Assembly (NCBI RefSeq): GCF_000380965.1
Contig: NZ_KB905559.1
Location: 45,801-109,800, forward strand
DNA length: 64,000 nt
Direction of reading: 5' to 3'
Source: Paenibacillus ginsengihumi DSM 21568
GTDB taxonomy: Bacteria; Bacillota; Bacilli; Paenibacillales; NBRC-103111
Shown here: positions 3,521-30,195 of the stretch, one piece after another
Position numbering within the stretch: the stretch's first letter is position 1
How the letters are laid out: each line of letters starts with the position of its first letter
Translations under genes and position numbers: made by a program
Notes under the pieces: generated by a model
What the model was told of the DNA's origin: nothing
Database searches by the model: none
The model's input: only the letters and a program-made list of their open reading frames with translations

Positions 3521-3535
3521 GATACGTAATGTATC
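3521..3535. promoter_or_regulatory. XRE-type operator GATACGTAATGTATC
   Basis: A perfect GATAC-N5-GTATC inverted repeat flanked by C and G. It sits about 10-25 bp downstream of the inferred transcription start of the 44-aa gene, a position suited to repression. The same palindrome occurs at 24340, 24811 and 29989. Confidence 0.65.
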
Positions 3536-3551
3536 GTCGCTTCTCGGCTAT

Positions 3552-3580
3552 ATTTTATCACGAACCTGCCTATCCATGAA
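3552..3580 (-). promoter_or_regulatory. candidate promoter of the 44-aa gene
   Basis: Read leftward: TTCATG (3575-3580), 17-bp spacer, and TGA-TAAAAT, an extended -10 (TAAAAT at 3552-3557). The operator at 3521-3535 lies just downstream. Confidence 0.45.
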
Positions 3581-3660
3581 CTTAAAAAAAGTTAATACTT
3601 GCCCCAGGCGGAAGGAACAGGGCACAGGCGGGGGAGAAGAAGGAGTCCGTTTCGGCCTTG

Positions 3661-3969
3661 CTATTTGTGCAGCGCGATACAGCTGCGCGCCTCCTCGACG
3701 CTGTACCCGGCGTTGCGAACCTCCCGGGCGAATTGAATCCATTCCCGCTCCAGCGCGTCCGTTTCGTCAGAAGCCTCGTCTCTGATGAGCGCCTCAATCT
3801 CCACTCCGAGCACCGTCGCTACCTTGATCAGAATCTCGATAGAAGGGTTGCGCTGGATATTTCGTTCGATCGAGCTCAAATACGATTTGGCGACGCCGGC
3901 CCGAAAGGCCAGCTCGTTCAGCGATAGCCTTCTTTGCTTGCGATATTGTTGAATGCGCTTACCAATCAT
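3661..3969 (-). CDS. sinR: SinR-like master regulator of biofilm genes
   Basis: The 102-aa protein matches the whole layout of Bacillus SinR. An N-terminal XRE helix-turn-helix (MIGKRIQQYRKQRRLSLNEL, then AGVAKSYLSSIERNIQ) is followed by a C-terminal dimerisation segment (EREWIQFAREVRNAGYSVEEA) of the kind that SinR shares with SinI. In Bacillus, SinR represses eps and tapA operons and is titrated by SinI. Here it lies 32 bp behind the last gene of the EPS locus, on the same strand, and may be transcribed with it. Its ribosome site is GGAG/AAGGTGATAA. No SinI-like ORF is visible beside it. A GTTCTTT heptamer matching the Bacillus SinR box lies upstream of the EPS promoter at 24446-24452. Confidence 0.82.
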   Translation of the reverse strand: MIGKRIQQYRKQRRLSLNELAFRAGVAKSYLSSIERNIQRNPSIEILIKVATVLGVEIEALIRDEASDETDALEREWIQFAREVRNAGYSVEEARSCIALHK

Positions 3970-4001
3970 GAATTTATCACCTTCACTCCTTTAAAGTCGC
4001 A

Positions 4002-4826
4002 TCATGAACCAGGTGCCATGATTTGCTCCAGCCGTGCGAGCGCTTTCGCCTGGGCTTCGTGTCTGGCCTTCTCGTATTGGCTGCGCCACGCGGCGGTCAG
4101 CGTATCTTCCAGCCCTGCCTGCTTCAATTCCTCTTGCGCTGCGGCGGCGATCTGCTCCCAGCCGCTGCGGCATTCCGCCTCCGCCTGCGCCAGCCGATCG
4201 GCATATTTGTTGTACATGGTCCTGATGTCCTCCGCATCCGAGGAAGCGAGCACCGCCCAGTCCCCGGCAATCTGCTCGGCAAGCTGCGCGGCCTTCGCTT
4301 CGCAGCTTGCCTGCAACGCACGCAGCTGCGGCTCATAGTTGGCCTTGACGCGCTGCGTGGTGCCGATAGCTTCCGCATCGGCCGCTTCCGCATCGGCCGC
4401 TTCCGCATCGGCCGCTTCCGGGTCGGCCGCCTGCCCCGATTCGCCATCCGCGGGAGGCTCATCGCCCGCTTCTGCCTGCGCTTCCTGCCGCTGCGCCGGC
4501 TGCTCATTCCCCGGCTCGGAGGGCGCCTTGCCCTCCGGCCCATGGCCCGGCTTCACCGCCGCTGCCGCACGGTCTTCCGCCAGGAATTGCGCTTTCCCGC
4601 TATTCTCTATTTCTTGTTCCGCGAATCCGGCCCCACTATCCTTTTCGACAGCTGGTGCTGGCGTCTTCTCCGGTTCGCCGGAACTGCTTGCGCGAGCAGG
4701 CCGCCCGTCCGTTCCGGACATGCTCCATGCCAAGAGCCCGATGGCCAGCAGAGCGAGGATGACGGCTCCTGCAGCCCAGAGGCGGGCTTTCGCCTGCGGC
4801 CTGCGCCGCTGCCGGTTCTTGATCAT
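4002..4826 (-). CDS. membrane-anchored protein with low-complexity linker and helical C-terminus
   Basis: I chose the ATG at 4826 (MIKNRQRRRPQAKARLW), which overlaps the stop of the upstream ORF as ATGA and follows a G-rich ribosome site; this gives about 274 aa. A positively charged N-terminus precedes one membrane helix near residues 17-36. A long Glu/Ala/Pro/Gly-rich linker follows, with four repeats of a five-residue EAADA unit encoded by a 15-bp tandem repeat. The C-terminal 115 residues are charged, probably helical and coiled (QLRALQASCEAKAAQLAEQI). The layout fits an extracytoplasmic cell-wall-spanning protein. Function is unknown; it is co-oriented with the EPS genes and precedes sinR. 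Confidence 0.7.
   Translation of the reverse strand: MIKNRQRRRPQAKARLWAAGAVILALLAIGLLAWSMSGTDGRPARASSSGEPEKTPAPAVEKDSGAGFAEQEIENSGKAQFLAEDRAAAAVKPGHGPEGKAPSEPGNEQPAQRQEAQAEAGDEPPADGESGQAADPEAADAEAADAEAADAEAIGTTQRVKANYEPQLRALQASCEAKAAQLAEQIAGDWAVLASSDAEDIRTMYNKYADRLAQAEAECRSGWEQIAAAAQEELKQAGLEDTLTAAWRSQYEKARHEAQAKALARLEQIMAPGS
4370..4435 (-). repeat. 15-bp tandem repeat inside a coding region
   Basis: Four near-identical copies of GCCGCTTCCGCATCG (+ strand), the last diverged, encode the Ala/Glu/Asp repeat in the linker of the anchored protein. Such in-frame repeats can change copy number without breaking the frame. Confidence 0.7.
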
Positions 4827-5014
4827 GCCGGAACCCCCCGCTTGCTTCTCCGGCGCGCAATGGCGCTGCAAAGAATAATCCCCGCCGCCGCCCCCGTGGC
4901 GTCAAGCAATACATCGAGCGCCAGCGGCGTGCGGCCCGCGGTAAACGATTGGTGAATCTCGTCCAAGCCTGCAGACGATTCGTGTCGCTCCCTTTCCGTG
5001 CTTATCCCTTCCAT
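4823..5014 (-). CDS. VanZ-like C-terminal fragment
   Basis: The 63-aa product contains LDEIHQSFTAGRTPLALDVL followed by LDATGAAAGI, which matches the conserved last third of VanZ-family membrane proteins (DE-x-x-Q-x-F-x-x-GR, then DVLxDxxGA). Normal VanZ-like proteins have about 150-170 residues with four helices; here only the motif and the final helix remain. The first 18 residues (MEGISTERERHESSAG...) do not look like VanZ. It starts right after the preceding gene (4-bp gap) and overlaps the next start, so it is translationally embedded. It is either a remnant fused to a new start or a mini-protein; I favour remnant. Confidence 0.5.
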   Translation of the reverse strand: MEGISTERERHESSAGLDEIHQSFTAGRTPLALDVLLDATGAAAGIILCSAIARRRSKRGVPA

Positions 5015-5017
5015 GGC

Positions 5018-6069: not shown

Positions 6070-6963
6070 TTAACGGCCTTGCACAAGGAGCTCCTTTTCA
6101 AACAATCTCTGCAGGTAGTTCATCACATCGCTTCGCAGATCGTCCCGTTGCAGGGCAAAGTCGACCGTCGCTTTAATAAAGCCGAATTTATCTCCTACAT
6201 CGTAACGCGTACCTTCAAAATTGTAGGAAAGCACCGCCTGAGTTTCGTTCAATTTTTTAATAGCATCGGTCAACTGGATCTCCCCGCCGGCGCCCGGCTC
6301 CTGCTTCTCCAACAGCTCGAAGATTTCCGGGCGAAGCACGTATCGCCCCATGATGGCATAGTTGGAAGGCGCCATTGACTGCTCCGGCTTCTCGACGAGC
6401 GACTGGACATGAACCAGATTCGGCTCAATCTCCTGTCCTTTAGGCTCGATAATGCCGTACTTGTTCACTTCCGCGTCCGGGACCCATTGAACGCCGACGA
6501 CAGAGGAATGATATTTATGAAACACATCGAGCAATTGCTTCAAGCAAGGCTTCCCGGATTGTACGATATCGTCTCCTAATAAAACAGCGAACGGCTCATT
6601 GCCGACAAACGACCTGGCGCATAAGACGGCATGTCCCAGGCCGCGCGGTTCCTTCTGCCGGATGTAGTGAATGTTCGCCATATCGGAGATGGCCCGAATT
6701 TCCTCCAATTCGGCCAGCTTCCCCTTTTTCTCCAATGTTTCCTCAAGCTCGAATGACTTGTCAAAATGATCCTCAATCGCCCGCTTGCCCCGGCCGCTGA
6801 TGATAATAATATCTTCAATGCCGGAAGCGATCGCCTCCTCAATGATGTATTGAATGGTAGGCTTATCCACGATCGGCAGCATCTCCTTCGGCTGCGCTTT
6901 CGTTGCAGGCAAGAAACGGGTGCCTAATCCCGCTGCTGGTATAATCGCTTTTCTGACCTTCAA
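6070..6963 (-). CDS. galU: UTP-glucose-1-phosphate uridylyltransferase
   Basis: GalU makes UDP-glucose from UTP and glucose-1-phosphate, feeding EPS, teichoic acid and glycolipid synthesis. The 297-aa protein has the nucleotide-binding start [20 protein letters not shown], the [10 protein letters not shown] segment, [10 protein letters not shown] and LVEKP, all typical of bacterial GalU. The start appears to be TTG at 6963, because GGAGG lies 8 bp before it. The gene follows wecB after 34 bp in the EPS locus. Confidence 0.96.
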
Positions 6964-6997
6964 TCCTATCGCCTCCTGCCGCTGCGGATTTGCATCC

Positions 6998-8161
6998 TCA
7001 TTGTTGAAAAATAGGCTCTGTCACCGTGAACGGGGCCGGCCTTGCGGCGCGAAATCCGTAAAAGTACAAAATCGCTTCCGCAATGCGCCTCGACGCTTGG
7101 CCGTCTCCATACGGATTCGCCGCCTGGGCCATTCGGGCATACACCCGACCATCCGTCAGCAGCTCATCCGCCATGCCGAAGATCGTTTCCTCGTCCGTTC
7201 CGGCCAGCTTTAACGTTCCGGCCGTCACTCCCTCGGGCCGCTCGGTCGTATCGCGCAGCACCAGAACCGGCTTCCCCAGCGATGGCGCTTCCTCCTGCAC
7301 GCCGCCCGAATCGGTCATAATCAGATAAGAGCGAGACATGAAGTTATGGAAATCAACGACATCCAGCGGCTCGATGAGGCGGATGCGGGGATGCTCCCCC
7401 AGCACTTCCCGCGCCGCTTCTCTCACCGCGGGGTTCATATGAACAGGGTACACAACGGCTGTGTCCTCGTGCTTCTGCACGAGCCGCAAAATAGCCCTGA
7501 ACATGCTGCGCATCGGTTCGCCGAGATTTTCCCGCCGATGGGCCGTGAGCAGGATGAGACGATGGCCCGCCAGTTCCTGAAGCACCGGGTGAGAATAATC
7601 GCCTCGAATCGTCGTTTTCTGGGAATCAATGACCGTATTGCCCGTGACAAATATACGCTCGCCCGGTTTATTCTCCCGCAGCAAATTGCCGGCCGCCACC
7701 TCGGTCGGCGCAAAGTGCAGATCGGCTATGACACCGGTTAGCGACCGGTTCATCTCTTCGGGAAATGGCGAGTATTTGTTGTTCGTGCGCAGCCCGGCCT
7801 CGACATGGCCGACGGCAATCTGGTTATACAATGCCGCCAGGCTGGCGACAAAGGTCGTTGTCGTATCGCCATGCACCAGAATCATATCCGGCCTCGCTTC
7901 CTTCAGCACACGATCCAGACCTTCCAACGTTCTGGAGGTGATATCCACCAGCGTCTGGCGGTCTTTCATAATATTCAGATCGTACTTTGGCTGAATATCG
8001 AAAATACGCAAAACTTGATCCAGCATTTGCCGATGCTGGGCGGTGACGCATACCGTCGTGTCCAATTCGCGATATTTCCTAAGCTCATGAACTAACGGCG
8101 CCATCTTGATCGCTTCAGGCCGCGTGCCGAAAATGGTCATTATTTTTTTCCGCTTTGTCAT
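6998..8161 (-). CDS. wecB: UDP-N-acetylglucosamine 2-epimerase (non-hydrolysing)
   Basis: The enzyme interconverts UDP-GlcNAc and UDP-ManNAc. The 387-aa protein (ATG 8161 behind AGGTGTGATG) has the start [20 protein letters not shown], the HGDTTTT motif, GHVEAGLRT and the UDP-binding [20 protein letters not shown]. The longer upstream start would overlap wecC without a ribosome site. With wecC just upstream it provides UDP-ManNAcA, a likely acidic sugar of this polysaccharide; it could also serve a teichuronic-type polymer. Confidence 0.96.
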
Positions 8162-8202
8162 TTCATCACACCTAAACGAGATATTGTTGGCGTACGTGCA
8201 GA

Positions 8203-9492
8203 TCACACCTGCGCTGCCGCCACTTCAAAGACCGCTTCTTCGGCAAGCGCCGTGCTGCTGCCGTCGCCCAGCAGAAAATACTCGAACCCGCTTTGCGTCA
8301 CCGCGTGTTTATCGAACAGGTTTCTGGTGTCGAGAATTTTTTTCGTTTTCATGATTTTGGCCAGCACATCGAAATTAAGATTTTTGAACTGTTTATGGTT
8401 GACGCCAAGCACGATCAAATCGGCATCGTTGGAGACCTCGTACACATTGCTGTCGTATTTCTCAATATACGGATCGACCACTTCCACCTGATAGTTTTCC
8501 TCCAGCATCTCGATCAATTCCACGACAGGGCTTTCTCTCATGTCGTCTACATCCGGCTTATACGTGCAGCCGAGAACGACAACCTTCGCCCGATCCGGCA
8601 CGAGGCCGGCAACCTTCTGAGCCACGTAAGCCGGCATCCCGTCGTTCGTCTTTCTGGAAAGCTCGATAATGCGGGCCAATTCCGGCGTCGCTTCAACGAT
8701 AAACCAAGGATCGACCGCAAGGCAGTGGCCGCCTACGCCAGGTCCCGGCTGATGAAGGTTGACGCGGGGATGCTTGTTGGCGTATTTCACGACATCCCAT
8801 ACATTGACACCGAGCTTGTCGCAAATTTTGGCCAGCTCGTTAGCGAGCGCGATGTTGACATCCCTGTAGGTGTTTTCCATCAGCTTGCACAGCTCGGCGG
8901 TTGTGGCGTCCGTCAGATGCATCTCGCCCTGAACGAAGGCGCTGTAGAGTTCCTTCGCTTTGATCGCCGACTCCTCGGTAATGCCGCCAATAATTTTGTT
9001 GTTATGCTCCAGCTCGTAAATGATTTTGCCGGGCAGCACGCGTTCGGGGCAGTGCGCCACATAAAAATCGCGGCCTGCCTTCAGCCCGCTTTTTTCCAAT
9101 ACCGGAATCAATACGTCTTCTGTGCATCGCGGAGATACCGTCGACTCCAAAATAACGAGGTTTCCCGGCTTAAGCACGGGATAGATGCTTTCCGCCGCTT
9201 TCACCACGTAGGACAAGTCCGCTTTCTTCTCCCGCGTGATCGGCGTAGGAACGGCAATGATGAAATTGTCCGATGGCTCGACGATCGTGCTTGCGCTGAA
9301 CATGCCGCTTAGGACGGACTGTTTGACGATCTCCTCGAGGTACGGCTCTTCGATATGAATTTTTCCTTCGTTGATGATATCGCAAATCTCCTGGACGACA
9401 TCCACGCCTTTCACTTTCACGCCATGGGACGCAAACATCGCAGCCGTCGGCAAACCGATATAACCTAATCCGATAATCGATACTTGTTTCAT
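8203..9492 (-). CDS. wecC: UDP-N-acetyl-D-mannosamine dehydrogenase
   Basis: The 429-aa protein belongs to the UDP-sugar 6-dehydrogenase family. It carries the Rossmann start SIIGLGYIGLPTAAMFASHG, a central helix with VNLHQPGPGVGGHCLAVDPW that includes the catalytic Cys, and the C-terminal domain VLGCTYKPDVDDMRESP. It oxidises UDP-ManNAc to UDP-ManNAcA with two NAD+. The WecC assignment (rather than UDP-glucose dehydrogenase) follows from the adjoining 2-epimerase. A terminator-like hairpin at 9541-9571 separates it from the upstream wzx gene. Confidence 0.93.
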   Translation of the reverse strand: MKQVSIIGLGYIGLPTAAMFASHGVKVKGVDVVQEICDIINEGKIHIEEPYLEEIVKQSVLSGMFSASTIVEPSDNFIIAVPTPITREKKADLSYVVKAAESIYPVLKPGNLVILESTVSPRCTEDVLIPVLEKSGLKAGRDFYVAHCPERVLPGKIIYELEHNNKIIGGITEESAIKAKELYSAFVQGEMHLTDATTAELCKLMENTYRDVNIALANELAKICDKLGVNVWDVVKYANKHPRVNLHQPGPGVGGHCLAVDPWFIVEATPELARIIELSRKTNDGMPAYVAQKVAGLVPDRAKVVVLGCTYKPDVDDMRESPVVELIEMLEENYQVEVVDPYIEKYDSNVYEVSNDADLIVLGVNHKQFKNLNFDVLAKIMKTKKILDTRNLFDKHAVTQSGFEYFLLGDGSSTALAEEAVFEVAAAQV

Positions 9493-9540
9493 ATTTCCAG
9501 CCTCCCTAAGTATTGGATGACAAAATGCAAAAAAATGTAG

Positions 9541-9571
9541 ATAAAAAATAGCCCTGTAAAATACAGAGCCA
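9541..9571 (-). terminator. intrinsic terminator inside the EPS locus
   Basis: Read leftward, GGCTCTGT (9563-9570) pairs with ACAGGGCT (9550-9557) around ATTTT, followed by ATTTTTTATC. It lies between wzx and wecC and would reduce transcription of wecC, wecB and galU from the main EPS promoter, or mark an operon boundary. Confidence 0.6.
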
Positions 9572-9601
9572 TTCCTAAACCGCTGCGCTGGAGCAAGCTG
9601 T

Positions 9602-10888
9602 CTATTCGGTGGTTCGCGCTGTCTCCGGATTTACATGCTTGCTGGATTGGTAAACCAGATAAAGCACAACCAAATAATTGATCGAGTACAAAATACTGAT
9701 GGTCAAGAGAAACGCCGTTATCGACCAGCCGAAGGAAAGCGCCAAAATATAGGCAGCGACCGATTCGATGAGAAAACCGATTTGCAGGAAAATATCGTAT
9801 TTTTGCTTTCCGGCGACAACAAATGAGACTGTCAAGGAAGTGACGATAAATTTGGCAGCAAACATGGGAGTAAGCAGCGAAATATAATACCCCGCTTTTT
9901 CCCAGCCGGGACCGAACAGCACTCCGATCACCTTCGGGGACAAGACGGCCACCAGGAAGAACATCGGGATCGAAGCCGCCGTCAGCAGAAGCAATGTTTT
10001 TCGGAACGCATGGACGAACTTCCCGGTTCGCTGCCGTTCCTCCGTCGCCCTGGACAAATAAACCTTGGCCACGTTCATGCTGATCAGCTGGATCGGCATG
10101 CCCAGCAGCCGATACGAAATATAATAATAGCCCACTTCCGCCAACCCGTATAAATTGCCGATAAATATATTCAATACGGAATAGGAGAAGGCGTTAATTA
10201 AAGAAGCGGGCGTTGAAAACAAGGCCTGGTTTTTATACTTTTTCAAGGCAGCTATGACGTCCATACGAGTGACTTGCAAAAAATCCTTGAGGTTGGCAAA
10301 CGCATGCTTCGCCTGGCGGGTGATGCCCATCAGAGTGGACAGCAATTGGGCGAGAAGAAGCCCGGCCATCCCCATCTTCAGCAGGCCAAATCCGATTTGC
10401 CCGGCCGCTTGCAGCAGCGAACGCATAAATGTGACGGAAGCGATGATTTTGAATTGTTGATGCCGGTTGTTGTAGCTGCTTAAAATATTGATGATTCCGT
10501 TGAACCAGAGCAGCGGCAGCGCCATGAAGCACCATAGGCCGATGGCGCTGTACGACGTAACCCCCATGGCCAAGACGGCCGCAAGCCCTGTCCCGACAAG
10601 CGCGATTACGCTCAACTGGATCCCCAGACTGCCCACAGTCAGGGCGCTTGCTTCTTTATCGTTGTCAGCGACCACGATGCCCATATCGTATTTGGCGTTG
10701 ATGACAGGGGTGAACATGCTGACCAAGGTCACAACCAGCGTGTAGGCGCCGAACTGCTCGGCCGTATAAATGCGGGTAATGATCGGCGATGTAAAAAATA
10801 AGATGAGCTGCGCGAAAATGGTTCCCAGGCTGAGCGTAAAAATGTTTTTCAGGAATGTGTTATTTTTAACTTTGCGAACAAGAGTCAT
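9602..10888 (-). CDS. Wzx-type polysaccharide flippase
   Basis: The 428-aa membrane protein has about 12-14 hydrophobic helices and the start NTFLKNIFTLSLGTIFAQLI typical of MOP-superfamily polysaccharide exporters (Wzx/RfbX group), followed by SPIITRIYTAEQFGAY. It would flip undecaprenyl-diphosphate-linked repeat units to the outer face of the membrane. It lies 18 bp after the Wzy-like polymerase in the operon, the expected pairing for a Wzy-dependent pathway. The C-terminal tail is short and charged. Confidence 0.88.
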   Translation of the reverse strand: MTLVRKVKNNTFLKNIFTLSLGTIFAQLILFFTSPIITRIYTAEQFGAYTLVVTLVSMFTPVINAKYDMGIVVADNDKEASALTVGSLGIQLSVIALVGTGLAAVLAMGVTSYSAIGLWCFMALPLLWFNGIINILSSYNNRHQQFKIIASVTFMRSLLQAAGQIGFGLLKMGMAGLLLAQLLSTLMGITRQAKHAFANLKDFLQVTRMDVIAALKKYKNQALFSTPASLINAFSYSVLNIFIGNLYGLAEVGYYYISYRLLGMPIQLISMNVAKVYLSRATEERQRTGKFVHAFRKTLLLLTAASIPMFFLVAVLSPKVIGVLFGPGWEKAGYYISLLTPMFAAKFIVTSLTVSFVVAGKQKYDIFLQIGFLIESVAAYILALSFGWSITAFLLTISILYSINYLVVLYLVYQSSKHVNPETARTTE

Positions 10889-10905
10889 ATTGGATATCAG
10901 CTCTC

Positions 10906-12261
10906 CTATCCGTCCGTTCTGCCAATTATTCGATATCGCTGAATTCCAATAAGCACAAGCAGCAGCAAGATGACGTCATATCTTACCCTAAAAATCGATT
11001 CCAGATCTGCATACATCACGATCATCCCCATGTAAATGGCCACCCGAATGATGATGGGCATCAACACGTAATTATGGTTGTAAGAAGCGATCAATCGGTC
11101 AATTTGTCCGAGAATGAAACCGAACAGTACGATGGTGAATAACACCCCTGCTATCCCTAATTGGTAATATCCCAATGTCAATATATCGCTCGGAATTCCC
11201 CCCAAGATCATCGTATTGTTTTGCATGACCGTATTATACACATACAGCGGCTCCGACTCGCGGATGCCGATTTTGCTCAGCACAAACGCCGGAGAAAGGC
11301 TGATGATCCACAAGAAAAAGTCCTGCATGTAACGAAAAGAGTAGTTGTCGTTGGAAAGCACGAACAGCATGTTGGAAAAAGGAAACGAAAACTGCTGCAT
11401 CAAGCTGGCCAATCCCAAATCCTCAAAGCTGATCGGTCTTCCGTACGATAAATAGGCAAAAATGGGATCCAGAACGATAATGCTGATGATCCCGATGACT
11501 ACGATGACGCTCCATAATACCATTTCTTTGTTCGAACGTTTTTTTTCCTTATGCTTCGTCATCAAAAAGCCGATGATCACGGTTGCCAGCAAAATAACGA
11601 TGTGCGTTCTGCCGCCATTAAGAAAAACAATGTACAGCGTAATCGCAAACGTAAACAGGGCCATCGTTCGATAGACGACGGTCGGCTTATATCGGGCCAT
11701 CATATAAAACAAATAAAATGAAAAGATGATGAATGGCTTGAACATTCTCAGGAAAACAATCGGGTTATTGGCGCCGTCCTTAACGTCCGAGCGTTTGAAG
11801 CCTCGGACCAGCTCGATATTGTTTAATGCGTTCAGAATGCCGCCCTGCAAATAAACCTCCGCAAAGACGCCGACCATGCCAATAAAAAAAGTAAGGAACG
11901 CGATTTTTTCATATTTGGCCAGCGGCAGTTCCTCGGAGGGCTCACGGTGCTTCCCTATTTTTGTTTTAACGCCTACGCCATATCCTGCAAGCAATGCGAT
12001 ATAGCCTGCAAAAGCCAAGAAGGTTACCAGAAAGATGACGTTTGTTCCGTAGGCAACGGCAATTTTTTCGGGAACGCTGCTGCGGTTGATAATGAAATAG
12101 ATGGGCACGACCCCATAGATCAGAGCATAAAAGTAGCTCCCGATCGAGAACGCTTTGATGCCCTTAATTTTTTTGTTTACCTTCATTACCGCAAATTGAA
12201 CCATGGCAATTAATCCGACACAGAAAGAAATGGCCAATAAGTCCTGGCTGTACATGTTCAT
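10906..12261 (-). CDS. Wzy-type O-antigen/EPS polymerase
   Basis: The 451-aa protein has at least ten membrane helices. A large extracytoplasmic loop (about residues 285-345, around SYGRPISFEDLGLAS and YVYNTVMQNNTMILGGIPSD) separates the C-terminal helices, as in O-antigen polymerases. An Arg-rich cytoplasmic motif NGGRTHIVILL is typical of this weakly conserved family. Function is assigned from topology and from its place between glycosyltransferase genes and wzx. It would polymerise repeat units on the outer face of the membrane. Confidence 0.8.
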   Translation of the reverse strand: MNMYSQDLLAISFCVGLIAMVQFAVMKVNKKIKGIKAFSIGSYFYALIYGVVPIYFIINRSSVPEKIAVAYGTNVIFLVTFLAFAGYIALLAGYGVGVKTKIGKHREPSEELPLAKYEKIAFLTFFIGMVGVFAEVYLQGGILNALNNIELVRGFKRSDVKDGANNPIVFLRMFKPFIIFSFYLFYMMARYKPTVVYRTMALFTFAITLYIVFLNGGRTHIVILLATVIIGFLMTKHKEKKRSNKEMVLWSVIVVIGIISIIVLDPIFAYLSYGRPISFEDLGLASLMQQFSFPFSNMLFVLSNDNYSFRYMQDFFLWIISLSPAFVLSKIGIRESEPLYVYNTVMQNNTMILGGIPSDILTLGYYQLGIAGVLFTIVLFGFILGQIDRLIASYNHNYVLMPIIIRVAIYMGMIVMYADLESIFRVRYDVILLLLVLIGIQRYRIIGRTDG

Positions 12262-12293
12262 TAGGTTTGTTCACCTTTTATCTTATTCAGCGA

Positions 12294-12385
12294 TAGACGC
12301 CTATGACGAGCGAATCCTTCGTCATCGGTCGTCACCTGCGGTGTTAAAAACTCGCCGGCAAGTTACCGTCAAATTTTCAAGATAG
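12294..12385 (-). repeat. dispersed palindromic element B, copy 1
   Basis: This reverse-oriented copy contains GACGAGCGAATCCTTCGTCA and GTCACCTGCGG, ending TTTTCAAGATA. Other copies lie at 33541-33631, 39589-39682, 53472-53570, 55638-55712 and a decayed one near 29000-29032. The last codons and stop of the glycosyltransferase at 12369 lie inside it. Confidence 0.75.
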
Positions 12386-13559: not shown

Positions 13560-13561
13560 CT

Positions 13562-15888: not shown

Positions 15889-15893
15889 GTCAG

Positions 15894-16520: not shown

Positions 16521-16531
16521 GATGATCATCC

Positions 16532-17428: not shown

Positions 17429-17438
17429 TCGAGGCTCC

Positions 17439-18554: not shown

Positions 18555-18556
18555 CG

Positions 18557-19324: not shown

Positions 19325-19354
19325 CTTTATGAACACTCCCTTCTGATGTACCAT

Positions 19355-20536: not shown

Positions 20537-20574
20537 CGTTATCCTCTCCTAAGTTTAGCCATGAGTTCATTTCA

Positions 20575-20630
20575 AATTTTAAAAAGAAGAAACTATCCAT
20601 ACCTGTCCATACACATAGTTTCTCCTTCTT
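20575..20630 (-). terminator. strong intrinsic terminator within the EPS operon
   Basis: Read leftward, AAGAAGGAGAAACTAT (20615-20630) pairs with ATAGTTTCTTCTTTTT over about 15 bp with two G-U pairs, enclosing a loop of about 18 nt, and the 3' arm itself supplies the U-rich tail. It ends about 40 bp before the aminotransferase start codon. Confidence 0.8.
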
Positions 20631-20978
20631 AATCTTCGAAACGAAGATCGGCAGCGGCCGTCCCCTTCGGTAGCGAGCCTTCGCAGGCGGACAAGGACTT
20701 CGCCGAATCCTCAGGATATCTCGGGCATTTAACCCATCCTCACATCACACCCTTGACGATGAACGTCTAAGCCTGCAGCGCAGACCACAGCATGACCGAG
20801 TGCCTACAGTGATAAAGGTGCAGTAGACATTACCTGAAGGCCGAACGGAGTTGCCTGCTCCCTCGCCTTCGCTTGTGTCGTGAATGATGCGATTGGGGCA
20901 GCCGTTTATCGCACTAAGCTACGGCATGCCGTTCACAAAAATGCAATAATTCTTATGCATTTAATCAACATTATAATT
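20631..20978 (-). ncRNA. structured RNA region before the operon-internal terminator (EAR-like by position)
   Basis: About 350 nt between the dehydratase stop and the terminator hold no ORF but several clear helices on the transcribed strand. These include GAAGGC...GCCTTC enclosing GGAG...CTCC, TGCGAT...ATCGCA inside GTGAA...TTCAC, GACG-TTCAT-CGTC, ATCC-TGA-GGAT and GGG-TTAAAT-GCCC. In Bacillus an antiterminating RNA (EAR) sits early in the eps operon. Here the position is comparable, one gene later. I cannot match the EAR consensus from memory, so it may be EAR, a riboswitch or a new element. Confidence 0.55.
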
Positions 20979-22829
20979 TTAGACGGTCACTAATTCCTTC
21001 TGATCCTGCTTATTGCTGCTTTGAAACGTAGGAACGATATGCTTCAGCAGAGCGCGGATCGGCTCCTGGCCTTGTGTGAGCACCTTCTCCAGCTTCTTCA
21101 TCTCGAAGTCGAGCTCGGTCCGGTCCATGATGACCGGATGGCCGATGAAGATCCGGTTATGCTTCGTCGAGCCCAGGCCTTCCTCGCTTGTCAGCAGTTC
21201 TTCGTACAATTTCTCACCGGGACGCATGCCCGTGAACTGAATCTGAATGTCGACGTTCGGCTCGAAGCCGGACAAGCGGATAAGGTCCGTGGCCAAGTCG
21301 ACGATTTTCACCGGTTCGCCCATATCGAGGACGAACACTTCCCCGCCTTCCGCGAAGGCGCCTGCCTGAATCACCAATTGCACGGCTTCCGGTATCGTCA
21401 TGAAGTAGCGAATCATCTCCGGATGTGTCACCGTAACCGGGCCGCCCATCGCGATCTGCTGCTTGAAGTGCGGAATGACGCTGCCCCGGCTGCCCAGCAC
21501 GTTGCCGAAGCGGACGGCGGCGAATTTGGTCTCGCTCTGGTTGTTCAGCGCCTGCACGTACATTTCGGCGATCCGCTTCGTAGTGCCCATGACGCTCGTC
21601 GGGTTGACGGCTTTGTCCGTCGATATCATGACGAACCGCTCCGTCCCGTATTTGTCTGCGCAATCGGCGACGTTTTTCGTTCCGAAGACGTTATTTTTGA
21701 CCGCTTCTGCGGGATTGCGCTCCATCAGAGGCACATGCTTATGGGCGGCCGCATGGAAGACAACATCCGGGCGATAGGTTTTGAAGACGTCGTCCATGCG
21801 CTCCCTGTCCTGCACGTCGGCAATGATCGTTTCCAGGACGGCGCCGGGGAACGTTCTCCGCAGCTCCATCTCGATCGCGTAGATGCTGTTCTCGCCGTGA
21901 CCCAGAAGCAGCAGCCGGGAAGGGCGGAACGGCAGCACCTGACGGCACAGCTCGGAGCCGATCGAGCCGCCGGCGCCGGTAACGAGCACCGTCTTGTTTT
22001 CTACATAATTAGCAATTCCTTCCAGATCGACCTTGATCGGGTCCCGGCCGAGCAAATCCTCCACATCGACGTCGCGAATTTCCTTGACGGCGATTTTGCC
22101 GTCAATAAGATCTCCGAGCTTCGGAATCAGCTTCAGCTTGGCGCCTGTGCTTTTGCAAATGTCGATCACCCCGGCGATATCCTTGCGGCTGAGCGAAGGC
22201 ATCGCGATGATGATGTCGTGAATCCCTTTTTCCTTCACAATCTGCGGCACCATCTCCCTCCCCCCGACGACCGTGATGCCCATGATCTGCTTACGGTGCT
22301 TCGTCTTGTCGTCGTCGATGAAGGCAACGGGATACATTTGGGCCCCTTTGTTGTACTTCAATTCCTTGGCGATCATCGTCCCGCAGTCTCCGGCCCCGAT
22401 AATCAGCGCCTTGCGCTTGTTGGTCGGGATTCGGTACATCCGGTCGCGATAAACGCGCCACACGAACCGAACTCCGCCCATCAACAGAAGGATGGTCTCA
22501 TACGCTCTCAGCACGATCGACAGCGGAACGCTCCGGCCTGTCAGCAGCCCGGCAACCGCCGTAGCCGCAAGGCAAGTGATGAAGACAGCCGCCAATATCG
22601 CCACCAGCTCGCCAATGCTGGCATACTGCCATACCCTCTGATACAGCTTGAAATAACCGGCCGTCAGCAGGCATACGGCGATCGAACATAAGCCGTAGAT
22701 CATGCATTGCTTGTAGTAAAGCGGAGGCACATTGCCGCCAAAGCGCAACAGGTAGGAGGAATAAATGCTTATCCATACGATCAGCACATCAATCGCAACC
22801 AGTATTGCCGTTCTTTGTTTACTGCTCAT
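20979..22829 (-). CDS. membrane UDP-sugar 4,6-dehydratase (CapD/EpsC/PglF type)
   Basis: The 616-aa protein has four to five N-terminal membrane helices (residues about 8-125), then a first nucleotide-binding fold (ALIIGAGDCGTMIAKELKYN) and a second, catalytic SDR domain (VLVTGAGGSIGSELCRQVLP). The active-site segment ISTDKAVNPTSVMGTTKRIA has Met where classical SDRs have Tyr, as in CapD/FlaA1-type dehydratases. It would convert UDP-GlcNAc to a 4-keto-6-deoxy sugar for the aminotransferase. It is the third gene of the EPS transcript. Confidence 0.95.
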   Translation of the reverse strand: MSSKQRTAILVAIDVLIVWISIYSSYLLRFGGNVPPLYYKQCMIYGLCSIAVCLLTAGYFKLYQRVWQYASIGELVAILAAVFITCLAATAVAGLLTGRSVPLSIVLRAYETILLLMGGVRFVWRVYRDRMYRIPTNKRKALIIGAGDCGTMIAKELKYNKGAQMYPVAFIDDDKTKHRKQIMGITVVGGREMVPQIVKEKGIHDIIIAMPSLSRKDIAGVIDICKSTGAKLKLIPKLGDLIDGKIAVKEIRDVDVEDLLGRDPIKVDLEGIANYVENKTVLVTGAGGSIGSELCRQVLPFRPSRLLLLGHGENSIYAIEMELRRTFPGAVLETIIADVQDRERMDDVFKTYRPDVVFHAAAHKHVPLMERNPAEAVKNNVFGTKNVADCADKYGTERFVMISTDKAVNPTSVMGTTKRIAEMYVQALNNQSETKFAAVRFGNVLGSRGSVIPHFKQQIAMGGPVTVTHPEMIRYFMTIPEAVQLVIQAGAFAEGGEVFVLDMGEPVKIVDLATDLIRLSGFEPNVDIQIQFTGMRPGEKLYEELLTSEEGLGSTKHNRIFIGHPVIMDRTELDFEMKKLEKVLTQGQEPIRALLKHIVPTFQSSNKQDQKELVTV

Positions 22830-22861
22830 GTCAATCCCCCACTCTAATGCTAACTTTCGGG

Positions 22862-23560
22862 CTATTTCTGTTTCGGTCCATATCCGTAATAGTAATAATA
22901 GGGCGATTCGCTCTTCTTCCGATCCTTGTTATTCAGCACGACGCCGAGCATTCGCGCATTCACCTGCTCCAGCCGGTCCAAAGCCTTGCGGGCCGTATCG
23001 CGCTTCACCTTGCCGCAATTCAGCACGAATACGACGCCGTCCACCTTCGTCGCCAAAATCTGCGAATCGGTTACGGCAAGCGTCGGCGGAGAATCGATCA
23101 GAATCATCTCAAAGCGCGTCTTCAGCTCCTCGATCAGCTGCTCCATCCGTTTGGAGTTCAGCATCTCGGCCGGATTCGGCGGGATCGGCCCGGACGGAAG
23201 CAGATACAGATGGTCGATATGCGTATCGTTCAGGCACTGCTGCAGATCCATCTGTCCAGCCAACAGGTTGGACAGCCCGCTCCGGTTCGATTTGAGAAAA
23301 TAATGGTGCAAGGTCGGCTTTCGCATATCGGCGTCGATCAGTATCGTGCTCTTTCCTTCCTGGGCGAAGGTGACCGCCAGATTGGAGATCGTCGTCGATT
23401 TTCCTTCCGAAGGCTCCGGCGAAGTTACGACAATGCTGCGAATCTGGCTGTCGATCGACGAAAACTGAATGTTCGTGCGAAGCGTCCGGTATGCCTCTGA
23501 CACGAAGGAACGCGGGTTCTCCTCGGTAATCAGCCGGTAATTATTGACCGATGCTCGCAT
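22862..23560 (-). CDS. bacterial tyrosine kinase (CpsD/EpsB family)
   Basis: The protein carries the BY-kinase motifs: Walker A TSPEPSEGKSTTISNLAVTF, Walker A' STILIDADMRKPTLHHYF and Walker B FEMILIDSPPTLAVTDSQIL. It ends in a tyrosine cluster SPYYYYYGYGPKQK, the autophosphorylation tail of the family. I chose ATG 23560 (MRASVNNYRL, 232 aa) because AGGTAGGTG is 9 bp before it; a GTG at 23572 is possible. The gene overlaps the end of the modulator gene, as usual for split Wzc systems in Firmicutes, and controls EPS polymerisation and export with the phosphatase at 28048. Confidence 0.95.
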   Translation of the reverse strand: MRASVNNYRLITEENPRSFVSEAYRTLRTNIQFSSIDSQIRSIVVTSPEPSEGKSTTISNLAVTFAQEGKSTILIDADMRKPTLHHYFLKSNRSGLSNLLAGQMDLQQCLNDTHIDHLYLLPSGPIPPNPAEMLNSKRMEQLIEELKTRFEMILIDSPPTLAVTDSQILATKVDGVVFVLNCGKVKRDTARKALDRLEQVNARMLGVVLNNKDRKKSESPYYYYYGYGPKQK

Positions 23561-24296
23561 ATCTCGTTTCACCTACCTGTGCATTGGGATTATCGGTTCT
23601 CGTCTTCTTGAACTCGTCTTTGTTCATCTTATGAATCGTCACAAGCACCGGCAGCTGAAGCAGCTCTTGCACGTCCGCTTCGCTTTTCACGGTATCGTCC
23701 AAATATTCCAGCAGGAAGGCCAGGCCAATGCCCGCCAGCAGAGCTACGACGAAAGCGATCGCCAGGTTGGTTTCCTTCTTCGGCTTCACCGGAACCGGCT
23801 TCTCCAGCAGCTTCGCTTCGCTCAGAATCATAATATTGTCGACCTTCATGAAGGTCGGAGTAATCTCCTTGAATACTTGCGCCACCGCATTGACGATGCT
23901 GACAGCCCTCGCTTGAGAATGATCTTCCGTGCTGATGGTGATGACCTGGGTATCGTTCACCGAGCTGACATTGATCTTCCGGATAAGCTGTTCGGCCGTC
24001 AACTCAAGTTCAGGATACTTCTCCGCCACCTTATCCATGATTGCCGGGCTCTTGATGATTTCCTTGTATGTATTGATCATGAGGATTTGAGAACGAATCG
24101 CATCGCTGGAGAAATAATTCAAATCCTTGACCGGCGTTGCTCCGTTCACAATAAGCTTCGTGCTGGCCGAATAGACGGGTTGAATGTAAAAGTAACTGAC
24201 CGCTCCGGTAACGATGCAGGATACCAATACAATCGTTACAATCATCCATAATCTTTTCTTGATAATGGCCAAATACTCTTTCAGTTCCAATTCCAT
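23541..24296 (-). CDS. chain-length modulator, Wzz/CpsC/EpsA type
   Basis: The 251-aa protein has an N-terminal helix (MIVTIVLVSCIVTGAVSYFY), an extracytoplasmic Wzz domain, a Pro-rich stretch EKPVPVKPKKETNLA and a second helix (AIAFVVALLAGIGLAFLLEY). The cytoplasmic tail activates the adjoining kinase in such systems. It is the first gene of the EPS transcript; the ATG follows GAGGGGAAC about 50 nt after the inferred transcription start. Confidence 0.94.
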   Translation of the reverse strand: MELELKEYLAIIKKRLWMIVTIVLVSCIVTGAVSYFYIQPVYSASTKLIVNGATPVKDLNYFSSDAIRSQILMINTYKEIIKSPAIMDKVAEKYPELELTAEQLIRKINVSSVNDTQVITISTEDHSQARAVSIVNAVAQVFKEITPTFMKVDNIMILSEAKLLEKPVPVKPKKETNLAIAFVVALLAGIGLAFLLEYLDDTVKSEADVQELLQLPVLVTIHKMNKDEFKKTRTDNPNAQVGETRYASIGQ

Positions 24297-24339: not shown

Positions 24340-24354
24340 GATACAATACGTATC
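24340..24354. promoter_or_regulatory. XRE-type operator at the EPS promoter
   Basis: GATACAATACGTATC is a perfect GATAC-N5-GTATC palindrome. On the leftward strand it overlaps the last three bases of the -10 element and covers the transcription start of the EPS operon, a classic repression position. Confidence 0.7.
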
Positions 24355-24561: not shown

Positions 24562-24726
24562 TTATTTCATGAAGTACATTTGTTTAGGAGCGGGATACGG
24601 GGAGGAACCTTGAATCAGCAAAGCGATTCCACTGTGCGTCCAGCGATCTTCGCGAATACCCAGTTCGTTTAAAATCTTGCGGACATCCAGCGGTTTGTTC
24701 CCTTGATTCGGATCATGGCCGTTCAT
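24562..24726 (-). CDS. small protein, 54 aa, under an operator-embedded promoter
   Basis: ATG 24726 follows AGGAGAAGGAG with 8-bp spacing; a second ATG one codon earlier is possible. The product begins MNGHDPNQGNKPLDVRKILN and continues ELGIREDRWTHSGIALLIQG, a soluble mixed-charge protein. Its promoter (24804-24832) has consensus TTGACA and an XRE operator filling the spacer exactly. It lies immediately upstream of the EPS operon on the same strand. The size and setting recall SinI/SlrA-type antirepressors, but the sequence does not show their signature. Function unknown. Confidence 0.65.
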   Translation of the reverse strand: MNGHDPNQGNKPLDVRKILNELGIREDRWTHSGIALLIQGSSPYPAPKQMYFMK

Positions 24727-24803
24727 CATTAACGCTCCTTCTCCTAAATAAATTTTTAGAAACATCCAATTGCGAACCATCATGCAACGGCGGCTCACAT
24801 ATC

Positions 24804-24832
24804 ACTTTATGATACATTATGTATCTTGTCAA
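24804..24832 (-). promoter_or_regulatory. promoter with XRE operator in the spacer
   Basis: Read leftward: TTGACA (24827-24832), 17-bp spacer containing GATACATAATGTATC (24811-24825), and TAAAGT (24804-24809). The operator occupies the spacer with one base free on each side, so a bound repressor would exclude RNA polymerase. Confidence 0.75.
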
Positions 24833-25029
24833 ACGCTGATTATATCGATTTATGTAATAATATGTCGAATATAGAAAAAATGAATCATATTTCTCAAATA
24901 AAAATTTTCAAAACTTTGAAGCGCTTACACCAATTTTTGGATGCCGCAACTCCGCCTGCGACTCTATGACTACATTTAGGACCCTATATTCGCGTATGTA
25001 CGAACAAGGCCGCGCAGACCCTTTTTTTT

Positions 25030-28023: not shown

Positions 28024-28047
28024 GCATCAACTCCATTATAATGAATT

Positions 28048-28824
28048 TTAATGATGCCAAAACTGGTACCAACGCTTGCTCTGCCTAGGGGAATCTCTAG
28101 GCACAATGCTGGTGCCCGACACAAGCCGGTTCGCATTGTCTGCATAATATTCCGCATAAGAGGACCCCAGTTGATCCTCGAGCACCCGATAAGCTTCGGC
28201 CAATGCCGATATACAGCGGGCCGAATTGTGCGCATCCGAACCGAGCAGATGCACGATTCCTTGCCGACACAGCGATAACGCCAGTCTCCGAATCGTCCGC
28301 CCGTGCATGCCGATGACAGAACCGGCGGTCAATTGCAGCAGCGCCCCATGCTCGACAAGCTGTCTGGCGCGGTCCGGCTCGGCAATAATCTCCGCATTTC
28401 TTTCCGGATGAGCGATAACAGGATGCAGATTTTTGATCCGCAGCTCATACAATAAATCATAGATGCTATCCGGTATATGCGAATGAGGCATCTCCAGCAA
28501 TATATATTCAGATTGATTGAGACAGAGCAGCTGCCCCTGGTCCCATTCATCGAGCAAGCCGGCATGTATGCGAATTTCTTGTCCAGGCAGCAGCCGAAGC
28601 GGCATATTGCGCCCGGCCAGCTCCTCCTGCAGCGCCGAAAGCGATTCCCGGACGGCGAAGGCCGGATTGTCGTAAGCCCCGTTCGCATGATGCGGGGTGA
28701 CGATAATCGTTTCGATGCCGTTCTTTATGGCGATCTCAGCCATTTGGAGCGCCTGCTCCAACGTCTGTGATCCGTCGTCCAGACCTGGAAGTATATGGCA
28801 ATGGGTGTCGATCAGCTTTATCAT
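28048..28824 (-). CDS. PHP-type tyrosine-protein phosphatase (YwqE/CpsB family)
   Basis: ATG 28824 (MIKLIDTHCHILPGLDDGSQ) follows GGGGAATGAG and gives 258 aa, the usual family length. The metal ligands of the PHP fold are visible: HCH in DTHCHILPGLDDG, VTPHH, EIRIH, HPERN and GSDAHN. These Mn-dependent enzymes dephosphorylate the tyrosine tail of BY-kinases such as the one at 22862 and so tune EPS synthesis. The gene lies upstream of the EPS operon in a separate transcript, with an XRE operator over its promoter. Confidence 0.93.
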   Translation of the reverse strand: MIKLIDTHCHILPGLDDGSQTLEQALQMAEIAIKNGIETIIVTPHHANGAYDNPAFAVRESLSALQEELAGRNMPLRLLPGQEIRIHAGLLDEWDQGQLLCLNQSEYILLEMPHSHIPDSIYDLLYELRIKNLHPVIAHPERNAEIIAEPDRARQLVEHGALLQLTAGSVIGMHGRTIRRLALSLCRQGIVHLLGSDAHNSARCISALAEAYRVLEDQLGSSYAEYYADNANRLVSGTSIVPRDSPRQSKRWYQFWHH

Positions 28825-28999
28825 ATTCTCATTCCCCGCTATGCTTGTAAATCGATGCCGGAAGTTCCTCATCGCACCGGACCGCGGCGGCCGGCCGAAC
28901 GGACTCGGCCGATCCCGGTTTTGCAGACTTCTGCCTTGACCAGCGGCCAGGATGGATAAATGTCTTCGGCATTTGCCATCCTATATATTATGGAAGAGA

Positions 29000-29032
29000 G
29001 ACGCCTCTAACGAGCATTTCCTCTCGTCATCG
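29000..29032 (-). repeat. decayed copy of element B
   Basis: GACGCCTCTAACGAGCATTT and CCTCTCGTCATCG match the conserved half of element B at about four positions in five. Only this half is recognisable. Confidence 0.4.
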
Positions 29033-29130
29033 CTTGCCATGACGATAAGTAATCATTGAGGCGTTCGACTCATTCATTCTTTCATCGACAAAATCATACA
29101 ATACTCTTCCCATCATCTGTATTTTGGGGT

Positions 29131-29160
29131 ACAATAGTCTCTGTTGATACATTTTGTAAA
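29131..29160 (-). promoter_or_regulatory. promoter and operator upstream of the tyrosine phosphatase gene
   Basis: Read leftward: TTTACA (29155-29160), 18-bp spacer, TATTGT (29131-29136). The operator-like GATACATTTTGTAAA (29146-29160) covers the -35 element. The leader to the phosphatase start is about 300 nt. Confidence 0.45.
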
Positions 29161-29195
29161 ATATCCGTGACATTATTACTATAAGTTGATAAAAT

Positions 29196-29210
29196 GTTAC
29201 ATTATGTAAC
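29196..29210. promoter_or_regulatory. XRE-type operator variant GTTACATTATGTAAC
   Basis: A GTTAC-N5-GTAAC palindrome with the same ATTAT centre as the site at 24811, between the divergent phosphatase and XRE genes. Confidence 0.6.
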
Positions 29211-29250
29211 CATTATTATACTAATCATCGTTATGAACCAAAGCATAAAG

Positions 29251-29259
29251 TGTTATAAT
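29251..29259 (+). promoter_or_regulatory. extended -10 promoter of the XRE regulator
   Basis: TGT-TATAAT is a perfect extended -10, 62 bp before the ATG at 29322. Operators lie about 40-110 bp upstream, which fits autoregulation. Confidence 0.6.
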
Positions 29260-29321
29260 GATGATATTATCGCAAGACTTAAGTCTTCAGACGCATTCGC
29301 ACGTTATTTGGGGGTATCTGT

Positions 29322-29693
29322 ATGAAATATGGGGAGCGCATCGCCCGGCTCAGAGAAAAGCACTCCATGACCCAAGAGGATTTAGCCAACAGACTAGGCA
29401 TAACCCGCGCCTCTTTGTCTCACTACGAGAACAACAGACGTGAACCGGATTACGATACGACGGTAAAAATCGCCAATCTGTTCAACGTATCCATCGATTA
29501 CTTGATGGGCCGTACAGAGGACCCGTACAAGGTTCTTGACGATGATGTCCGGCAGTTCGTTGACAGCCTGGAGCTGTCCGACGAAACGATCCTGGAGAAA
29601 TTCACCCTTACCATCGACGGCAAAAAGCTAACTCCTGACGAAGCCAAGCGATTCATCGCTTTCGTCCGGGCAGAACGCTCCATGCACGAATAG
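29322..29693 (+). CDS. XRE-family transcriptional regulator, likely local EPS regulator
   Basis: The 123-aa protein has an N-terminal Cro/CI helix-turn-helix (GERIARLREKHSMTQEDLAN, then LGITRASLSHYENNRREPD) with the common IDYLMGRTED end. A C-terminal acidic dimerisation region follows (DDDVRQFVDSLELSDETILE, LTPDEAKRFIAFVRAERSM). The ATG follows GGGGGT. The nearby palindromes GATACATTWTGTAWC resemble operators I recall for the PBSX repressor Xre of Bacillus, which has the same type of helix-turn-helix, so this protein is the best candidate to bind the sites listed here. That link is inference. Confidence 0.85.
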   Translation: MKYGERIARLREKHSMTQEDLANRLGITRASLSHYENNRREPDYDTTVKIANLFNVSIDYLMGRTEDPYKVLDDDVRQFVDSLELSDETILEKFTLTIDGKKLTPDEAKRFIAFVRAERSMHE

Positions 29694-29715
29694 ATCAGCG
29701 ACATGGTCAAATATT

Positions 29716-29744
29716 ACTTTATGATACATTTTGTAACGTGTCAA
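29716..29744 (-). promoter_or_regulatory. convergent promoter with embedded XRE operator at the 3' end of the XRE gene
   Basis: Read leftward: TTGACA (29739-29744), 17-bp spacer holding GTTACAAAATGTATC (29723-29737), TAAAGT (29716-29721). The geometry equals that at 24804-24832. Transcription from it would run antisense through the XRE gene. Confidence 0.65.
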
Positions 29745-30195
29745 CCATCTAAATGCCTGTTTTTGCTCAGCTCATTCCGTTCGCTTCATCCCTGATTCTA
29801 CGATCCGTTTGACCAACCGCGCCCTCGCACGCCGGCCTGCCCCGCTGTATCAAGCCTGTCCTTCAAGGAAAGTAGCCGCAGATCAAGGAGATGCGGCTGC
29901 CCTGGACAGATCGCTCCGGCGACCGATGACCCCGCACGCATGAGCGCTTCCCCTTCCGTGACCGCTCCGGTACCTTCGCCTTCATAATGATACGAATTGT
30001 ATCATCCGCATTCACAAAAGCCTAACGCTACCCCCCTGCCCCATAGGCCGCCGACGTGCTCTTTTCCCTGCGAAAACTGCCGTGCTCTTCTCTCCGCAAA
30101 AGACCGCCAAGGAAATGACACGAGCGCCTGCTCATCATTTTGCCGCACACGCCCCGGAAACCCAGATTCCATGCTGCGGCGCTAATGTCCCGAGC
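29745..30195. other. intergenic region without recognisable gene
   Basis: The only feature seen is the perfect operator GATACGAATTGTATC at 29989-30003, extended to ATGATAC...GTATCAT. No coding frame here has a ribosome site or protein-like composition. Confidence 0.5.
29989..30003. promoter_or_regulatory. XRE-type operator GATACGAATTGTATC
   Basis: A perfect GATAC-N5-GTATC palindrome extended by AT/AT on both sides. No gene start is close, so it may be an auxiliary site or belong to a lost promoter. Confidence 0.5.

Follow-up and report, generated by a model that had tools for sequence, protein, structure and literature searches.

Background

The Spo0A-SinI-SinR-SlrR logic of Bacillus subtilis, in which Spo0A~P favours the matrix genes (sections available of PMC10134886), and the Xre repressor of the defective prophage PBSX, whose consensus operator in B. 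subtilis is quoted as GATACATTTTGTATC in the excerpted text of PMC4243335, are the described systems with which we compare a locus of Paenibacillus ginsengihumi DSM 21568, where an XRE-family regulator gene, an exopolysaccharide (EPS) operon and two tiny genes share the palindrome GATAC-N5-GTATC. The DNA analysed, called the window below, is a stretch of 64,000 nucleotides (nt; positions 45,801 to 109,800 of contig NZ_KB905559.1, here C12:45801-109800) from a genome of 5,675,308 bases in 144 contigs; C, L and G numbers denote contigs, loci and genomes. Elsewhere, an XRE factor on the capsule promoter of Neisseria meningitidis raised reporter expression (PMC12131743, as excerpted). For Paenibacillus, a paper on the EPS cluster of P. 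polymyxa names B. subtilis SinR and lists a LytR gene, and the words 'xre', 'repress' and 'promoter' are absent from its main text (PMC7911366). Among the papers listed by searches of the open full-text literature, none deals, by its title or the start of its abstract, with this regulator, with the regulon or with the microprotein in Paenibacillus; most subscription journals fall outside that scope, and this is not proof.

Likeness to PBSX Xre is close at the level of DNA: its GATACATTTTGTATC-type operator is shared with the matrix derived from relatives below, and both proteins are repressors (predicted in the present case). That similar palindromes are known for Xre-type repressors had been stated when the window was read from sequence alone, and the PBSX consensus bears this out. 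PBSX Xre guards a defective prophage, whereas the gene here is spread over an order and tied to EPS genes; within the window the sites adjoin EPS genes, regulatory genes and small genes rather than phage-like targets of the PBSX type, and no phage record has 60% or more identity to the XRE protein. Because the operator equals that of PBSX Xre, what is new here is the regulon and the microprotein rather than the motif. Unlike SinI/SinR, the arrangement here places the repressor's presumed operator in the microprotein's own promoter. Phage modules of a transcription factor and a small open reading frame (ORF), like the small antirepressor of arbitrium, serve phage induction, not EPS, and ImmR of ICEBs1 is by its entry title a mobile-element regulator, unlike the protein considered here.

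The regulator and its probable operator sites

The sites, their clustering and their conservation in relatives are almost certainly real, and the XRE protein is very likely the one that binds the palindromes. Its gene (P0001; 29322..29693, plus strand) encodes 123 amino acids (aa) with the HTH_19 and HTH_3 domains (PF12844, E 1.1e-19; PF01381, E 5.3e-18) that place it among XRE (Cro/CI-type helix-turn-helix, HTH) regulators. A simple gene caller starts some genes late, giving the XRE protein as 108 aa and missing the start of the epimerase discussed below. The AF2 model has a pLDDT of 90.8, and a fold search with it returned matches to ImmR, P22 C2 and SinR; for the C-terminus no fold match was obtained in that search, at least one fifth of the rows spanning residues 1-71 only. 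Among the alignments listed, the 'Transcriptional regulator' 9sf2 (129 aa) aligns with nearly the whole protein, C-terminal part included (profile 2-120, E 1.8e-16). A phage origin of the gene was considered and rejected: the 442 phage records that match the protein, and the 410 that match the HTH part alone, all show less than 60% identity.

All seven operator positions claimed by the sequence-only reading were recovered in the window. Four are perfect (3521..3535, 24340..24354, 24811..24825 and 29989..30003), that at 29723..29737 has one mismatch, and those at 29146..29160 and 29196..29210 have two each. The latter two end 161 and 111 nt upstream of the start of XRE. The expectation of 0.06 occurrences in 64 kb, given for a fixed pattern of ten bases, is also right. 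When up to two mismatches are allowed, 29 matches are found in the window; shuffled sequence gave 17.4 on average and 25 at most, and the two-mismatch class, taken alone, is mostly chance. A 21-nt matrix was trained on 54 distinct operators that lie up to 200 nt upstream of XRE orthologues from genomes other than the window's own (loci L021-L081), and that had originally been picked by at most one mismatch to the pattern of the sequence-only reading. The seven positions take its first seven places in the window, in the order 24811, 24340, 29989, 29723, 3521, 29146 and 29196 (28.8, 28.2, 27.5, 24.3, 22.5, 21.1 and 19.2 bits), the next window match scoring 16.3. Best scores in 30 Markov sequences averaged 11.3 and reached 21.8, above the two weakest sites. 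These two, at 29146 and 29196, are supported because like-placed pairs, 36-53 nt apart at about -58 to -171 of XRE, precede the gene in relatives (L022, L029, L043, L047, L048, L049, L072 and L075).

Across the genome the exact pattern occurs 10 times and its reversed control once. Six of the ten sites lie within 33,017 bp (C12:42787-75803), a concentration that bears out the clustering around the XRE gene, since random placement of ten sites put five or more in 33 kb in 0 of 200,000 simulations. Outside the window, two of the six stand in front of the gene for a GalE-like epimerase, whose longest frame is L016:14758-15804 (PF01370, E 1.4e-47); with the ATG at L016:15750 as its start, the sites at L016:15788 and 15874, together with a one-mismatch site at 15755, lie upstream. 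Another, C38:30286 (L017:8287), is 56 nt before an 83-aa membrane-like ORF (L017:8358-8609); this runs into the beginning of another ORF, whose product has an O-antigen-ligase (Wzy_C) domain (L017:8578-9699; PF04932, E 5e-10). The target set first proposed within the window is in this respect too small. The site at C121:288 scores 22.2 bits, yet lies within a 162-aa ORF, and the exact sites on C10 and C67 have cores that differ from the rest. The pattern GWTACRNNNYGTAWC finds 8 sites against 2 for its control; having been chosen after the sites were known, it lends no independent support.

Distribution of the motif and of its targets

An XRE orthologue (E<1e-40) is present in 44 of 60 genomes, the window's own included. 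Exact sites number 558 against 108 for the control in these 44, and 66 against 32 in the 16 without an orthologue; the excess per Mb differs between the two sets (p = 1.4e-6; p = 5.9e-5 without the window's own genus). The same comparison was made in 138 of the 296 genome rows of an order-wide set (g22, g26, g28 and the g39 rows without an orthologue). Within genus g22, the 11 genomes with the orthologue hold 119 sites against 28 control (1.83 per Mb) and the 40 without it 271 against 135 (1.00 per Mb), a difference with p = 0.00017 whilst control densities are alike (p = 0.70); all 54 g26 genomes have the orthologue, with 662 sites against 141. The motif follows the XRE gene through the order. 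In relatives assembled as one contig, 11 of 15 sites fall in 54 kb (G002) and 6 of 15 in 42 kb (G011), in stretches containing or adjoining XRE.

Targets were counted in 30 named loci, fetched because they encode XRE (28 Paenibacillus, one Cohnella and one Gordonibacillus; 574,241 bases), in which an operator was an exact match, or one mismatch with a purine and a pyrimidine at the inner positions, and a target had it within 200 nt upstream. There are 139 such operators, against 2 for the reversed pattern. They precede 20 of 31 full-length XRE genes and 9 of 11 partial ones (HTH-only forms of 66-79 aa, 6/7; 93-aa forms, 3/3; an interrupted copy, 0/1), as well as genes for PilZ-like proteins (15/17), wzz (6/9), CpsB phosphatase (4/7) and sinI (5/5). 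Lower counts were obtained for galE-like (4/11), SinR-like (2/16) and galU (1/9) genes, and in these loci none for sugar-phosphate transferase (0/13), tyrosine kinase (0/9), glnA (0/7), DAHP synthase (0/6), ispH (0/6), g34840 (0/5), the response regulator (0/5), the aminotransferase (0/5) or three further genes seen once or twice. SinI identity rests on PF08671 (E 8.2e-11, L066:12825-13004); PF07238 is matched by one PilZ-like protein (E 3.4e-7), just under cut-off by another (2.2e-4) and not by three more. Twelve loci, some from the same or a near-identical genome, have a SinR/SlrR-like gene whose start lies 43-82 nt beyond an operator. The supposed separation of this regulator from the SinR system consequently does not hold in general, given the operators before sinI and these SinR/SlrR-like genes. 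Further operators in G002, G011 and G017 precede genes for DUF3492/PelF-like glycosyltransferases, an SLH protein, a GalU-like nucleotidyltransferase, a YkuD transpeptidase and a flippase identified by eye; some sites in relatives, chiefly in G017, fall inside predicted genes.

Several features beside these operators are recorded in their own right. HTH-only XRE genes occur in L058, L059, L060, L061, L063, L064 and L065, and their products could be Cro-like competitors. Operators lie upstream of a tyrosine-recombinase gene at L066:10588-11094 (Phage_integrase, E 7.3e-24, L066 alone tested), and also in L067, L068, L070 and L081; in at least four of these loci a divergent gene behind the operator encodes a secreted-looking protein ending DIWKKWFCY. 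Short peptides with a ...FET... stretch follow an operator by 29-54 nt at L060:8562-8729, L123:1532-1651 and near 5560 in L071; they resemble precursors of ribosomally synthesised and post-translationally modified peptides by eye only, and the first two have no Pfam match. CxxC proteins of 84-85 aa begin 21-22 nt after an operator at L102:18862-19119 (G002) and L097:14284-14538 (G011), with weak zinc-ribbon matches only.

A microprotein family and its promoter

Of the two tiny proteins suspected beside the operators, that encoded at 24562..24729 (minus strand; smB, 55 aa) proves to belong to a conserved family travelling with XRE. The ORF begins 81 nt after the operator at 24811, and small ORFs following operators in relatives resemble it. 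An iterated hidden Markov model (HMM) finds 45 distinct members in the fetched loci at E<1e-6, of 42-90 aa (43 of 45 under 70), with the consensus KIxLDIxxILxQLxI, of which the LDIxxILxQLxI part marks the family; none of the six members searched (smB, the L102 member and those of L031, L029, L055 and L049) has a Pfam match over cut-off. The family is an undescribed one. It is visible because genome searches, not a search of a protein set, reveal its members: in a large protein set smB matched only two entries of 98-100% identity, and smA, the other tiny protein, only one identical entry (100%).

Against 60 genomes, the HMM gives 26 matches at E<=1e-6; the distance to an XRE orthologue is at most 5 kb for 22 of them and at most 35 kb for 25. 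Of the 61 matches at E<=1e-3, 39 and 51 fall within these distances; 32 of the 33 genomes with a match have the orthologue. The training rows were drawn from XRE loci, so that their own nearness to XRE is by construction. Seven genomes not knowingly in the training (G026, G028, G030, G032, G036, G044 and G052) have weaker matches (E 3.6e-7 to 2.2e-4, that of G052 with an internal stop) at most 0.5 kb from XRE. Layouts range from convergent with overlapping 3' ends (L048, L066, L067, L068 and L070) to divergent at about 0.9 kb upstream. Distances among XRE proteins and among microproteins correlate (Mantel r 0.58, reached in 0 of 2000 permutations), which shared ancestry can explain; clean co-descent was set aside, L073/L074 being discordant. 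One of the 45 is a second member in the window's own genome (L016:15959-16141); it lies upstream of the epimerase, a little beyond the edge of the window.

The smB core promoter (24804..24832, minus strand) consists of TTGACA (24827-24832) and TAAAGT (24804-24809), with the perfect operator within the 17-nt spacer. Among family members 25 of 45 have an operator in the 300 nt upstream; TTGACA (TTGACT in one) abuts it in 12 of these, and in 11 of the 12 A-TAAAGT or A-TACAGT follows, making the operator the -35/-10 spacer (the -10 being read by eye). Further upstream, at 24863..24869 on the minus strand, stands TTCGACA, which on the opposite strand reads as the Spo0A-box core TGTCGAA (PMC3485338, as excerpted). 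In gene sense this heptamer precedes 20 of 45 family members, smB included, and in antisense two; before other genes of at least 100 aa in these loci the counts are 23 and 14 of 473, and 200 rounds of shuffled upstream regions gave a mean of 0.8 and at most 5 of 45. Before the other operator-bearing genes of the named loci it is found upstream of XRE in 2/42, PilZ-like genes in 0/17, wzz in 0/9 and the phosphatase in 0/7. Spo0A is encoded in the window's own genome.

The smA gene (3364..3498, minus strand; 44 aa, MPYIHFSEIWTPLKLIG...) has no Pfam match. Its perfect operator (3521..3535) ends 22 nt before it, between -10-like elements and an AGGAGG (3509-3514). A smA-like ORF of 40 aa with an operator 20 nt upstream occurs in G002 (L102:18691-18813), so that smA is seen in two genomes only.

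The EPS operon and neighbouring genes

Strand and spacing suggest that 6070..24296 (minus strand) is a single EPS operon. All its genes lie on that strand: wzz, the first (23541-24296), with a perfect operator (24340..24354) 43 nt before it, followed by a tyrosine autokinase (22862-23572), a polysaccharide-synthesis epimerase (20979-22829), an aminotransferase (19355-20536), a sugar-phosphate transferase-like gene (15894-16529, below the NCBIfam cut-off), the repeat-unit polymerase (10906-12261), a flippase-like gene (9602-10888, likewise below cut-off), a nucleotide-sugar dehydrogenase (8203-9492), WecB (6998-8206) and GalU (6070-6963), together with glycosyltransferase-like genes. As originally proposed, a single motif is common to the XRE gene, the EPS operon and both tiny genes. 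The CpsB/CapC-type tyrosine phosphatase, divergent from XRE (28048..28872, minus strand; PF19567, E 2.9e-56), had been included as a target; here the case is weak, the nearest site being about 270-320 nt before its start, and it is the relatives, with an operator within 200 nt in 4/7, that favour it.

The site at 29723..29737 lies within a second example of the smB-type promoter, with TTGACA at 29739-29744 and TAAAGT at 29716-29721. This promoter copy points back into the 3' end of XRE, with no microprotein gene behind the layout at 29716-29744; a lost microprotein gene was a guess that was dropped, the downstream sites of L059, L061, L024 and L026 being without this TTGACA/TAAAGT layout. For 29989..30003 a search for a target found short ORFs only, none convincing. 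As a whole, the sequence-only reading is partly supported.

Repeats were also seen in the window. Directly 3' of glnA (30268-30354) are two 36-nt direct repeats, 83% alike, a 16-nt part of which, AGCAGTCGAAGTACAG, occurs in three copies 35-36 nt apart; near-identical repeats around GCATCGGCCGCTTCC lie at 4365-4425, within the gene at 4002-4871.

Proposed mechanism and alternatives

Binding of the XRE protein probably represses its target genes. Covering the promoters of its own gene, the EPS operon and the two microprotein genes, it would block RNA polymerase; starvation would raise Spo0A~P, and a little smB would then be made from the promoter with the Spo0A-box core. By pulling XRE off DNA, smB would free its own promoter and the EPS genes, and such positive feedback would render slime production switch-like and self-locking. 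It is the Spo0A core upstream of the smB promoter and the operator inside it that lead us to expect smB to be made as Spo0A~P rises, freeing itself and the EPS genes. The step in which the microprotein acts as an antirepressor of XRE has, on its own, slightly less than an even chance of being right; the overall reading, in which XRE is an autorepressor that acts on EPS genes and the Spo0A-driven microprotein is its antirepressor, is the one we moderately favour. The logic of Spo0A-SinI-SinR would then be matched by parts without detectable sequence similarity, as we propose here. A more tentative suggestion is that biofilm slime has here a second Spo0A-microprotein-repressor switch, one that evolved independently and whose repressor also sits on sinI in some species and so stacks two switches.

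It is worth setting out what weighs against this reading. At one mismatch, 117 matches are counted in the genome and 45 for the control; loose matches are common elsewhere in the genome and are by themselves no evidence. Site excess is also seen without an orthologue, in g22 (271 against 135), g28 (14 genomes, 92 against 23) and g39 (19 genomes, 81 against 32), which suggests that other regulators share a like palindrome. No operator lies within 200 nt of 11 of the 31 full-length XRE genes, among them four copies of a second paralogue, XRE-B, and Gordonibacillus L080 (45% identity), nor within 300 nt upstream of 20 of the 45 microprotein genes. The Spo0A core is found before only 20 of the 45, from related loci that are not independent, and TTCGACA also precedes ispH in 6/6 loci (within 300 nt) and glnA in 1/7. 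Microproteins beside XRE-B copies have the Spo0A core (TTCGACAAAA) and no GATAC operator, and the second microprotein of the window's own genome has neither upstream. Twelve of the 44 XRE-orthologue genomes lack a microprotein match, and in L073/L074 XRE is nearer the A copies and the microprotein nearer the B copies. Neither XRE nor the microprotein resembles SinI or the SinR C-terminus by Pfam or hhalign, and a SinI/SinR-type pair exists separately in the genome, on C18. With the XRE C-terminus (residues 67-123) no PF08671 row was obtained at a maximum E of 10, whereas a true SinR (L066:13054-13365) gives E 1.2e-13, and the hhalign probability of this C-terminus against five SinI-type rows is 1.09. 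PF08671 is absent from the members of L031, L029, L055 and L049 and, at a maximum E of 0.05, from smB and the L102 member, and the hhalign probability of microprotein against SinI is 0.35.

The microprotein had by eye looked like a true SinI homologue, a candidate that was rejected, PF08671 and the profile comparison being unsupportive. XRE-B (L052:5755, L053:5399, L055:5689 and L056:3973) stands tail to tail with a microprotein gene of its own. The IspH gene of the named loci is the counterpart of window 33733-34677, and the TTCGACA before it is either a Spo0A link or a chance conserved feature.

The strongest competitor to a microprotein antirepressor is that XRE is an ordinary EPS autorepressor and the microproteins mere outputs, small matrix, membrane or enzyme-modulating peptides without effect on it. 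We consider this unlikely, though it gains from the many non-regulatory genes among the targets, from the microproteins' want of a recognised interaction domain and the weak model of smB (pLDDT 65.9), and from the twelve XRE genomes without a match. Mere outputs would sit uneasily with strong family matches that are almost confined to the XRE neighbourhood, some lying tail to tail with the XRE gene or a paralogue, and with a Spo0A-type box that operator-free members often retain.

That box and the genomic co-occurrence fit equally well a microprotein that, under Spo0A and XRE control, tightens XRE binding as a co-repressor in negative feedback. It is common for co-repressors and antitoxins to be controlled by their own regulator. 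Here, however, a gene that is turned on along with the EPS genes would shut them off again, and in B. subtilis Spo0A~P works in favour of matrix genes (PMC10134886, sections available), which leaves this arrangement improbable. Least probable is that the palindromes belong to another factor, such as a prophage Xre, and lie near XRE incidentally: PBSX Xre does have the same palindrome, and orthologue-free genomes show some excess of sites, but the operator precedes XRE itself in 20 of 31 full-length genes, site density follows presence or absence of the gene within g22, and the phage records all stay below 60% identity to the protein.

Conclusions

The EPS of Paenibacillus matters for roots, soils and industry. 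If the favoured reading, an EPS autorepressor released by a Spo0A-driven microprotein, is true, an EPS regulon could be predicted throughout an order from one short motif, a microprotein family not yet described would gain a testable job, and the logic of SinI/SinR would have arisen with different parts.

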